56,702 nt of DNA from a virus: positions 1 to 56,702 of the IMG/VR virus record IMGVR_UViG_3300049846_000236; one strand, written 5' to 3'. Under the pieces are notes generated by a model. That model saw only the letters and a list, made by a program, of their open reading frames with translations, searched no databases and was not told the origin of the DNA. Shown piece after piece: positions 52,846-55,682 of this stretch (its first letter is position 1; each line of letters begins with the position of its first letter). Position numbers and translations under genes: made by a program.

Positions 52846-52869
52846 TTACTCCATGTGAGTGAACGGCTA

Positions 52870-52908
52870 TTGACAGTTACCCCCATTCTTGATAGAGTGG
52901 GGGTAACT
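52870..52908 (+). promoter_or_regulatory. promoter with flanking inverted repeat (operator-like)
   Basis: TTGACA (52870-52875), 17 bases, TAGAGT (52893-52898) with TGA before it. A perfect 10-bp inverted repeat, AGTTACCCCC (52875-52884) and its complement (52899-52908), brackets the -10. It may be a repressor site on DNA, or a hairpin ending transcripts from the upstream gene. Confidence 0.65.
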
Positions 52909-52929
52909 GCTATCCAAGGGAGGATAACT

Positions 52930-53787
52930 ATGAAGAGGATCACACTGATTCTTAGCACCATGCTAGTAGCATTTCTTATGGGTGGTTCCTGGGCTTGGGC
53001 CGGGGAAACTCCTTCGTCCGATGACGACTGTACCACTGAAACTACCGGTTGGGTTCTTGAATCGCCCGGCCAGGATTGGACCCAGGTAGATCAGCGCACC
53101 GTTGTCGATGAGGAAGCCTGGGACGAGACTGTTGTTGATGTAGAAGCACAGCATTATTCTCTAAAAGGCAATTCTGGAATCGGAAAGGACGAAATTCCAG
53201 TGTTTCCTGCTGATTACTGGCAGGCCAACGCGCCATTAGAGCCACACTATCAGGGACACGGACTACCAGCATCGAATGTTGATGGCAGCGATTATATAGA
53301 AGGTCAGTCTGGCCTTCACTATACATCACAGGGCTCCGAGGGTCTTCGTGACTGGTTCTACTTCCAGGCGGAAGAGAGCCACGTTGTGCATCACGATGCT
53401 GTGACACACGAAGAGTTTGTATTTTCCAAGACAACGTGTGATAACCCGCACCCGCAGACTATTGCTTTGCGTGCTCACAAGTCAACGTGTGAGGGGAACT
53501 TCATGGCTACCATCACTATTACTACGCTTGACGGAAAGGTAATTTCTAAAGAGCGTAGCAAGTGGGTTAAGGTATCTAATCTCACCCATGCTCAGAAGGT
53601 TCAGTTGGAGTGTCTGACTCCGATCAAGCCTGAACCTACGCCAGACAAGCCTGAGGGGGCTGTGCCGGTCGCTGAGGAATTGCCCCACACCGGAGGCAAC
53701 CTCGCCCTCGCTGGAATTGCTGGGGCTCTCCTGGCAGCGGGAAGCGGCCTTGTGTGGTTTAGCCGCCGCCGCTTGACAGACGTGTGA
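52930..53787 (+). CDS. secreted LPHTG cell-wall-anchor protein
   Basis: 285 residues. Signal peptide (KRITLILSTMLVAFLMGGSW, with an AWA-type cleavage site near residue 24), extracellular region with repeated histidine and acid-rich segments (VDEEAWDETVVDVEAQHYSL, VVHHDAVTHEEFVF) and a four-cysteine distribution, proline-rich linker (PIKPEPTPDKPEG), then LPHTG near residue 250, a hydrophobic helix and a basic RRR tail. That is the complete sortase signal. The product should be attached to the host cell wall by host sortase during infection. ATG 52930 has GGGAGG upstream; longer frames lack the signal-peptide position. A surface role such as blocking superinfection is plausible. Confidence 0.82.
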   Translation: MKRITLILSTMLVAFLMGGSWAWAGETPSSDDDCTTETTGWVLESPGQDWTQVDQRTVVDEEAWDETVVDVEAQHYSLKGNSGIGKDEIPVFPADYWQANAPLEPHYQGHGLPASNVDGSDYIEGQSGLHYTSQGSEGLRDWFYFQAEESHVVHHDAVTHEEFVFSKTTCDNPHPQTIALRAHKSTCEGNFMATITITTLDGKVISKERSKWVKVSNLTHAQKVQLECLTPIKPEPTPDKPEGAVPVAEELPHTGGNLALAGIAGALLAAGSGLVWFSRRRLTDV

Positions 53788-53801
53788 GTAGATGGTAAGA
53801 T
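53773..53801 (+). promoter_or_regulatory. promoter of the tRNA/RNase P RNA cluster
   Basis: TTGACA (53773-53778), 17 bases, TAAGAT (53796-53801) preceded by TGG. The -35 lies inside the last codons of the LPHTG gene. A small hairpin (GTGAGT 53837-53842 with ACTCAC 53855-53860) lies between the promoter and the first tRNA. Confidence 0.75.
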
Positions 53802-53867: not shown

Positions 53868-53938
53868 GCCAGATTAGCATAGTGGCAGTGCGGTGCTCTT
53901 GTAAAGCATTGGCGACAGTTCGATTCTGTCATCTGGCT
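53868..53938 (+). tRNA. tRNA-Thr (anticodon TGT)
   Basis: Full cloverleaf: acceptor GCCAGAT/ATCTGGC, D stem GCAT/GTGC, anticodon loop CTTGTAA on a GTGCT/AGCAT stem, T arm GACAG-TTCGATT-CTGTC. 71 bases, no encoded CCA. Reads ACA and possibly other Thr codons by wobble. Confidence 0.93.
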
Positions 53939-53939
53939 C

Positions 53940-54033: not shown

Positions 54034-54104
54034 GCCTCTTTAGTTTAATGGTAGAACATCTGTTTCGTAATCAGATAGTCGGAGTTCGATTCTCCGTCGA
54101 GGCT
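54034..54104 (+). tRNA. tRNA-Thr (anticodon CGT)
   Basis: T arm CGGAG-TTCGATT-CTCCG, anticodon loop TTCGTAA, D-arm region AGTTTAATGGTAGAAC. The outer five acceptor pairs (GCCTC/GAGGC) are sound, but the inner two (T6, T7 against C, T) are mismatched, and the last anticodon pair is T-T. It might function poorly or after modification. No encoded CCA. Confidence 0.82.
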
Positions 54105-54175
54105 CGTGAATAAATATGACGGACTCACTCTGGCAGAAAAAATGTTAGCCGTGGCATTGGAGCCCGTAGAAGAAC

Positions 54176-54394
54176 TTGTGACCGAGGCACCGCAGGAAAC
54201 TGAGGAAAGTCCGGACTCCTAAATGGAACCGTGTGGCCAGCCCTTAATCAGGCCCCACTAAGCCGAAACTTAAAAAGCAATGGTGCAGGGTAGGAGCAAC
54301 CTCAAGCAGATATGGCGTGCCATTTCGTTTACATATCGGGTAGAGGGCAAAGATGGATGGTGCCTCTCGACAGAATCCGGCTTATAGGTCACAA
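54176..54394 (+). ncRNA. rnpB: RNase P RNA (compact)
   Basis: Catalytic RNA that removes 5' leaders of precursor tRNAs. The hallmark GAGGAAAGTCCGGACTCC (54202-54219) and ACAGAATCCGGCTTA (54370-54384) pair to form P4: AAG and CCGGA (54207-54209, 54211-54215) with TCCGG and CTT (54376-54383), leaving the universal bulged U at 54210. Supporting helices: P1 TTGTGACC/GGTCACAA (54176-54183, 54387-54394), P2 GAGGCACC/GGTGCCTC (54184-54191, 54359-54366), a tiny P3 CAG-GAAA-CTG, and P5 CTCCTA/TAGGAG (54216-54221, 54291-54296). AGATGGATGG (54351-54360) fits a conserved core block. About 219 nt, far shorter than the usual 340-400. No protein subunit gene was seen. Confidence 0.93.
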
Positions 54395-54422: not shown

Positions 54423-55367
54423 ATGTTTACAACCATTTTGCTGGCTGTACTTATTCTTACAATTATCGTCGGTGTTATCGTTTGGGGTCGCATTGATGCT
54501 TCCCAATCGGCAGACCACGAACTTACAAAGAAAGTTGTTGGATGGTCTACTGTTGGTGTTGGTGTGCTGACAGCGGCTCTTCTTATTTTCTCGACACTTG
54601 TTATCGTTCCGACCCGCGAGGTGGGTATTAAGTTGACCTTCGCCAAGCCTGTCGGTACATTGTCGAATGGTCTGCACGTCAAGGCCCCCTGGCAGAGTGT
54701 TGAGCACATGGATGCTGCCATTCAGACGGATAACCACGTCAAGGACGGTGGAGAGACTTCTGACGGTTCGCATAGCCTTTCTTGTGTGACCACCCGCATC
54801 GCTCACCAGGCTGTCGCCTGCGTAGACGTTACTATCAGGTGGCGTATTATTGACGACCAGGCGGCGCAGTTGTTCCAGAACTACCGTACCTTCGGAAATG
54901 TTCGGGACTCTCTAGTAACTCGTGACCTTAATTCAGCAGTGAATGCCACTATGGAAACATATGACGTGCTTTCTGTTGATGAGAACGGTCAGGCTACCGC
55001 GCCTGAACTGTCAGAGGTCGCTAAGTCTGTCATGGAGGAAATGAACGCTCAGATTGGCGATCAGATCGAGGTTCTACAGGTTATTATCCCCGTTGTCCAC
55101 TTTGACGACGCCACTCAGAGTCGCGTCAATGCTCTACAGAGCCAGATTGCTCAGACCCGTATTGCAGAGCAGGCAGAGCGTACCGCTATTGCCCAGGCCA
55201 AGGCCAACAAGGAACTCGCCGCTTCGGTTTCTAACGATCCAAACGTGCTAGTGTCTAAGTGCCTTGATCTTCTGAACGAGTCTATTACTAAGGGGTATCC
55301 CCTTCCAGCCGGGTTCTCCTGCTGGGGTGCATCTAGTGCTATTGTGGTACCATCTGCTAAGTCATAA
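54423..55367 (+). CDS. band-7/SPFH (stomatin-like) membrane protein
   Basis: 314 residues. Two N-terminal hydrophobic segments (about 5-22 and 39-62), then an SPFH domain (VPTREVGIKLTFAKPVGTLS, DVTIRWRIIDDQAAQLFQNY) and a charged helical region (AQTRIAEQAERTAIAQAKAN) ending in a short hydrophobic tail. Family members form ring-like assemblies on membranes. Its role in phage biology is unclear; membrane protection or organisation at late infection has been suggested for relatives. ATG 54423 follows AAGGGAAAT. It lies directly behind the RNase P RNA with no terminator between, so both may be on one transcript. Confidence 0.85.
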   Translation: MFTTILLAVLILTIIVGVIVWGRIDASQSADHELTKKVVGWSTVGVGVLTAALLIFSTLVIVPTREVGIKLTFAKPVGTLSNGLHVKAPWQSVEHMDAAIQTDNHVKDGGETSDGSHSLSCVTTRIAHQAVACVDVTIRWRIIDDQAAQLFQNYRTFGNVRDSLVTRDLNSAVNATMETYDVLSVDENGQATAPELSEVAKSVMEEMNAQIGDQIEVLQVIIPVVHFDDATQSRVNALQSQIAQTRIAEQAERTAIAQAKANKELAASVSNDPNVLVSKCLDLLNESITKGYPLPAGFSCWGASSAIVVPSAKS

Positions 55368-55608: not shown

Positions 55609-55682
55609 GCCAGCGTAGTATAACGGTATTACACAAACTTGGTACGTTTGTGAAGGGAGTTCGACTCTCCCCGTTGGCTCCA
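55609..55682 (+). tRNA. tRNA-Thr (anticodon GGT)
   Basis: Acceptor GCCAGCG/CGTTGGC (one G-T pair), anticodon stem CAAAC/GTTTG with loop TTGGTAC, T arm GGGAG-TTCGACT-CTCCC. Unlike the other two it is followed directly by an encoded CCA. Reads ACC and ACU. Confidence 0.9.

Follow-up and report, generated by a model that had tools for sequence, protein, structure and literature searches.

A compact RNase P RNA encoded beside tRNA genes in tailed phages

Among three tRNA-Thr genes of a virus lies a stretch that resembles the RNA subunit of RNase P, which raises the question of whether phages encode such an RNA and, if so, what it might do where no gene for the protein subunit, RnpA, is found. The DNA analyzed here (the window) comprises positions 1 to 56,702 of IMG/VR record IMGVR_UViG_3300049846_000236, a 56.7 kb virus record that is probably a fragment. 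The window is from a tailed phage, as it contains portal, capsid, protease, primase and ribonucleotide reductase genes, its capsid protein is 68% identical to those of Streptomyces phages (Stanwilliamsviridae), and relatives of the RNA occur in complete phage isolates. The original prediction, made from the letters alone, proposed a phage-encoded, compact RNase P RNA next to phage tRNAs, a reading that is supported by a match to the Rfam model of bacterial type A RNase P RNA (RF00010), by relatives in cultured phages and by covariation. The features of this locus are:

53773-53801, + strand: sigma70-like promoter site, TTGACA-17-TAAGAT, its second hexamer preceded by TG (consensus scan; no evidence of use)
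53868-53939, + strand: tRNA-Thr(TGT), CCA not encoded (ARAGORN; RF00005, 65.2 bits; sequence)
54034-54105, + strand: tRNA-Thr(CGT), CCA not encoded, ending 70 nt upstream of the RNase P RNA (ARAGORN; RF00005, 54.4 bits)
54176-54394, + strand: compact RNase P RNA, P1 to P1', 219 nt (RF00010, 80.3 bits, E 1.7e-24; 152 bits with R1, a model of the window-type group; relatives; covariation)
54203-54219, + strand: CR-I GAGGAAAGUCC, with the P4 5' strand (AAG, bulged U54210, CCGGA) and the start of P5 (sequence; cmscan alignment)
54221-54226, + strand: 5' strand of the P6 pseudoknot, AAAUGG, pairing over 6 bp with CCAUUU at 54320-54325 (sequence; P6 of other sequence in relatives; two-sided changes)
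54228-54284, + strand: reduced specificity domain with a short P7, the hairpin GUGG/CCAC (54233-54236/54255-54258) and the motif CCACUAAGC, without recognizable P9-P14 (columns invariant in the phage group; unaligned by RF00010)
54300-54346, + strand: P15 (CCUC/GAGG), P17 (GAUAUG/CAUAUC), L17 with the P6 partner, and GGGUA with the GGU motif (cmscan alignment; covarying P15 and P17)
54349-54385, + strand: CR-IV (AAAGAUGGAUG), P2 3' strand, CR-V ACAGAAUCCGGCUUAU and P4 3' strand, P18 being absent (cmscan alignment)
54423-55367, + strand: band-7-like membrane protein gene, the next gene downstream (phrog_200, 1.2e-48; ~40% identity to actinophage band-7 proteins)
55609-55682, + strand: tRNA-Thr(GGT), CCA encoded (ARAGORN; sequence)

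The three tRNA-Thr genes near the RNA were confirmed by ARAGORN, and the absence of a protein subunit gene also held, in that the window, itself a fragment, has no match to the RnpA family PF00825. The further proposal that the cluster stands under one strong promoter survives only in part, since a sigma70-like site is present but its strength and use have no support beyond a consensus match. By the same kind of match, no terminator-like site was found on the + strand between the 53773-53801 site and 55800. Just upstream of the tRNA/RNase P cluster lies an LPXTG-type cell wall anchor gene (52855-53787, + strand; PF00746, E 1.5e-4). A 38-codon open reading frame (54107-54223, + strand), which starts with GTG and ends with TAA, extends into the 5' part of the RNA; it is probably due to chance, and no equivalent is expected in the Microbacterium phage relatives, where a tRNA lies directly upstream.

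Read by position, P1 (54176-54183/54387-54394) and P2 (54184-54191/54359-54366) have 8 bp each, P3 (54193-54195/54200-54202) has only 3 bp and a GAAA loop, P4 is formed by 54207-54215 and 54376-54383 with a bulged U at 54210, and P5 pairs 54216-54220 with 54292-54296. The span from P1 to P1' therefore coincides exactly with the interval proposed at the outset, and the predicted length of ~219 nt was borne out; most of the specificity domain and P18 are missing. The sequence also contains the two conserved blocks in the order claimed, and the coordinates and cmscan alignment agree with the earlier assignment of P4 with its bulged U and of paired P1, P2, P3 and P5. Thus, the RNA has P1, P2, P3, P5, P15 and P17, a P4 formed by CR-I and CR-V that retains the bulged U, and the P6 pseudoknot characteristic of type A, in which J5/7 pairs with L17 over 6 bp in the window and over 6-13 bp of differing sequence in relatives. 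The GGU motif in L15 of RNase P RNA binds the 3' CCA of tRNA, and it is found here as CGGGUA at 54337-54342, aligned by cmscan. A full specificity domain (P7-P12, CR-II/CR-III) is not present, as ~57 nt are unaligned by RF00010 and contain only the short P7 and a P8-like hairpin.

The RF00010 alignment, obtained by cmscan over 1 kb, is full length (model positions 1-367), but the gathering cut-off of this family (100 bits) is not reached anywhere in the window. The original prediction had listed the lack of an Rfam match above threshold among its refutations, and at 80.3 against 100 bits this outcome formally occurred; the test was judged too strict, because the low score follows from deletion of most of the specificity domain (the P7-P14 part) and of P18 from an RNA whose core is present. 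Indeed, a viral relative of only 207 nt (L003) scores 118.5 bits against RF00010, above the cut-off. In addition, the two conserved motifs occur at such close spacing in only 3 stretches among 2.9 million viral contigs, and all 3 match RF00010, so the motif pair is not a product of chance. Folding the single sequence by free energy did not set it apart from shuffles (z 0.27) and is uninformative alone, and BLAST of the window RNA against phages gave no match; short divergent RNAs escape BLAST, and relatives were recovered by motif patterns and with L003 as query. The RNA at 54176-54394 is thus confirmed as a genuine compact RNase P RNA of bacterial type A, its identity being established and its activity inferred.

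Constraint on the structure is seen in five Microbacterium-type RNAs that align without gaps, in which the named structure comprises 51 pairs, P6 included. All 255 of the 255 cells in this alignment are standard pairs, and 11 pairs have changed on both sides (one in P3, three each in P4, P5 and P6, and one in P17). None of 500 shuffles equaled this pairing, which fell to 29-37% when the partner was slid by 1-3 columns. In a more divergent set (the window, L016, L054, A3Wally, a further Microbacterium phage and Zooman), 245 of 246 pairs in P1, P2, P4, P5, P6, P15 and P17 are standard, compared to 218 in the best of 20,000 permutations; the helix stretches of this test were chosen by eye, which favors the observed value, and the gap-free test is much less free. 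P6 is independent evidence because the Rfam model does not contain it. Even P4 has changed while remaining paired, as two nearly universal pairs are altered in Zooman and Big4 (A-U to G-C and G-C to U-G) and another in L054 (CCGCG/CGCGG). Loss of P2 or P4 pairing in relatives would have refuted the prediction, and when this covariation check was run both were found to be kept. The RNase P RNA core is under selection as an RNA in phages.

RNAs of the window type are encoded, unannotated, by four isolated Microbacterium foliorum phages, including A3Wally, Zooman and Big4, all at one fixed place between tRNA-Arg(CCG) and tRNA-Arg(CCT), with RNA ends at or within a few nucleotides of the tRNA ends. 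Beyond these cultured phages, similar RNAs occur in roughly a dozen further viral sequences, mostly within large tRNA arrays, and pattern scans of viral contigs place compact RNase P RNAs in several viral lineages. Because the motif scans require near-consensus CR-I and CR-V, the counts of viral loci are lower bounds; the viral status of single metagenome contigs is the IMG/VR label, except where phage genes were checked. Terminase or portal genes adjoin the RNA locus in L017, L023 and L054, as does a tail sheath gene in L027. Of seven Stanwilliamsviridae phages, the isolates nearest to the window phage, none has a significant RF00010 match, so the RNA is a patchy trait. No RNase P RNA was detectable with Rfam or R1 in Myrna, XacN1, G, RaK2, T4 and other large or tRNA-bearing phages (the R1 targets held no positive record), and R1 matched only one, already known, of 396 Actinomycetota genomes, in a search whose first pass scores few candidates per genome.

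The association of these RNAs with tRNA genes is close. Of 15 distinct viral loci, with the Microbacterium group taken as one, 12 have a tRNA gene within 500 nt, often abutting, compared to none of 14 compact bacterial RNAs. There are 29 tRNAs in the 7.5 kb around the RNA in L016, a contig of 202.7 kb, and the numbers near the RNA are 27 in L024, 17-22 in L017, L022 and L023, 16 in L026 and 13 in L003. In L017, L022 and L023 every tRNA gene encodes CCA, spacers are mostly 1 nt, and the RNase P RNA sits inside the array and ends 3-7 nt before the next tRNA; in L024, CCA is encoded in 26 of 27 tRNA genes, which mostly lie 0-7 nt apart. RnpA (PF00825) was not found in 17 virus records, three of which are complete genomes (A3Wally, Zooman and Big4), in a search that gave a match in 10 of 14 control genomes. 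No partner protein encoded with the RNA is thus seen in these records, and supply by the host is inferred.

Several other RNAs and genes were seen alongside these loci. Compact RNAs from 14 bacterial MAGs were set aside, as each is the sole RF00010 match of its genome and none lies in a tRNA array; they are therefore the cell's ordinary copies, or else fragments or misassemblies, rather than phage RNAs; those of the Elusimicrobia MAGs L031, L036 and L039 have ~242-249 nt. Full-length type A RNAs (~250 bits) in MaAM05 (MW495066.1) and MT835480.1 were excluded because they may be bacterial sequence, and MW495066, which also has fabI, engB and mtgA, looks like bacterial sequence filed as phage. 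A 209-nt pseudo 'tRNA-OTHER' of Rhodococcus phage Trina (84277-84485; L062 915-1123) was rejected as not being an RNase P RNA; it adjoins a Ro gene and may represent a Y-like RNA or the remains of tRNAs. Genes for a phrog_850 RNA-binding protein occur near the phage RNase P RNA in L024 (392-1867, - strand) and L027 (6732-8387, + strand), and a Ro RNA-binding protein is also found beside tRNAs in Trina, a possible connection of Ro-type proteins with the tRNA arrays of phages. The tRNA annotations of A3Wally (MZ150783.1) seem to take the anticodon for the codon, as those labeled Pro(cct) and Ser(tcc) correspond to Arg(cct) and Gly(tcc) in sister phages.

In the RNAs of the window, L016, L054 and the Microbacterium group alike, the specificity domain is reduced and contains the motif CCGUGUGG..CCACUAAGC, and neither P9-P14 nor P18 is recognizable in any of them. 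R1 gives its members, which are its training set and include the window RNA, 152-171 bits, compared to 14-54 for other compact RNase P RNAs. Different parts (P18, P8/P9) are retained in L003, L020, L021, L025 and L027, so reduction of the specificity domain seems to have occurred more than once.

The reading favored here, with a probability of roughly 0.6, is that the phage RNA, a catalytic domain with a remnant specificity domain, combines with host RnpA and matures the tRNA transcripts of the phage. Its anatomy (P1-P6, P15, P17, CR-I, CR-IV, CR-V and the GGU motif), the selection acting on it as an RNA and its position within tRNA clusters of phages are observed; activity is inferred, as is use of host RnpA because no RnpA was found in these phages. 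In an infected cell, the RNA would bind host RnpA, and the resulting enzyme is predicted to cut the 5' ends of phage tRNA precursors, the outcome being either a higher RNase P capacity or a specificity shifted towards phage tRNAs. In tight arrays that encode CCA, each RNase P cut would make the 5' end of one tRNA and very nearly the 3' end of the previous one. Where tRNAs abut the RNA, as in the Microbacterium phages, RNase P cutting at the downstream tRNA may create the 3' end of the RNA, and 3' maturation of the upstream tRNA may create its 5' end, so that one transcript could supply the tRNAs along with their maturation enzyme. The E. coli catalytic domain alone is able to cleave, less efficiently, and P6-like pairing then matters while P18 is not needed (PMC5839562); the window-type RNAs, which retain P6 and lack P18, have that combination.

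Processing of phage tRNAs by this RNA fits the tRNA context but remains an inference without expression or cleavage data, and several points count against it. A phage RNase P RNA is not indispensable for the maturation of phage tRNAs, as none is detectable in the nearest isolates or in other large or tRNA-bearing phages; only three tRNAs lie near the window RNA, two of them without CCA, and none is directly 3' of it. In addition, the reduced specificity domain should weaken pre-tRNA recognition, and the changed P4 positions of Zooman and Big4 could lower catalysis. More broadly, it is modestly favored that several lineages of large tRNA-carrying phages encode a compact, phage-specific RNase P RNA that has lost most of its specificity domain, uses host RnpA and places tRNAs and the ribozyme that matures them on one transcript.

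Some of these points suit other explanations of the locus. The RNA with host RnpA might mainly cut targets other than phage tRNAs, such as host tRNAs, defense RNAs or phage mRNAs, if loss of the specificity domain relaxed T-loop recognition; replacement of most of that domain by the conserved motif and the occurrence of the RNA with only three or no tRNAs nearby (the window, L054 and L025) are consistent with this, but the proximity of 12 of the 15 viral loci to tRNA genes, many abutting, and retention of the GGU motif that binds tRNA CCA make such a change of substrate unlikely. It is also conceivable, and quite improbable, that the RNA is a decoy that titrates host RnpA and inhibits host RNase P with no need for cleavage. 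A compact RNA with a protein-binding catalytic domain, in a phage without an RnpA gene, could act in this way, and the altered P4 positions of Zooman and Big4 are in keeping with it, but the bulged U, CR-IV, CR-V, GGU motif and P6 are all kept, although a decoy could do without them, and a phage with tRNAs of its own would suffer from a block of RNase P.

The remaining alternatives are contradicted by the data. A decaying, functionless leftover captured from a host chromosome would explain patchy occurrence among related phages and deletion of peripheral helices, yet every named helix, including P4 and the P6 pseudoknot, is kept by two-sided changes, and the RNA has a fixed position in four Microbacterium phages and recurs across several phage lineages, leaving little room for this view. 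That the phage label is wrong here, through host contamination or a chimeric contig, is scarcely credible: IMG/VR and phage collections do contain bacterial pieces, as the type A RNAs of MW495066 and MT835480 illustrate, but the window carries phage capsid, portal, protease and reductase genes, a second contig (L002) is 99.7% identical over 7.9 kb with the same arrangement, and relatives are found in complete phage isolates. Processing of phage tRNA transcripts with host RnpA remains the preferred reading.

A 2024 review of RNase P names phage only for phage tRNAs and precursors (PMC11143913), and no earlier description of a phage-encoded RNase P RNA was found in the open-access literature searched, a scope that leaves out most subscription papers and all bioRxiv preprints. 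What comes nearest in that literature are extra rnpB copies of M. austroafricanum (PMC9569102) and RNase P RNAs of CPR bacteria (PMC8172020). If the RNA is active, the tRNAs of a phage arrive together with an enzyme that processes them, a point relevant to the question of why phages have tRNA genes. These loci also offer naturally minimized RNase P RNAs of ~210-220 nt, and the variants with changed P4 would show, as experiments of nature, which of the residues held to be universal are required. Direct testing is feasible, since the RNA is carried by four sequenced phages that infect a laboratory strain of Microbacterium.

Like bacterial type A RNase P RNA (rnpB, RF00010), the phage RNA has P1-P5, the P6 pseudoknot, P15, P17, CR-I, CR-IV, CR-V, the bulged U of P4 and the GGU motif. 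It differs from this class in its size (~217 nt, compared to a model of 367 positions), in its reduced P7-P8 and lack of P9-P14 and P18, and in its origin in a phage, beside tRNA genes and with no RnpA. Type T RNase P RNA of the archaeal Thermoproteaceae likewise keeps the catalytic domain and has largely lost the specificity domain. Type T, mentioned in PMC8172020, is archaeal and has different proteins, whereas the phage RNA fits the bacterial type A model and its remnant has a conserved motif of its own. Diverged RNase P RNAs of CPR bacteria, some without P12, P13, P14 and P18, require lowered Rfam thresholds, but these are cellular rather than viral and do not lie in tRNA arrays (PMC8172020). 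Mycobacterium austroafricanum has divergent extra RNase P RNA copies with an altered specificity domain, beside an endonuclease gene and proposed to be horizontally acquired (PMC9569102); these were reported on a bacterial genome, no phage origin was proposed there for rnpB, and no sequence comparison was made. The laboratory E. coli catalytic-domain RNA (PMC5839562) has in common with the phage RNA the absence of the specificity domain, the importance of P6-type pairing and the dispensability of P18, whereas the phage RNA occurs naturally, in viruses, and has a true P6 and a short remnant of P7-P8.
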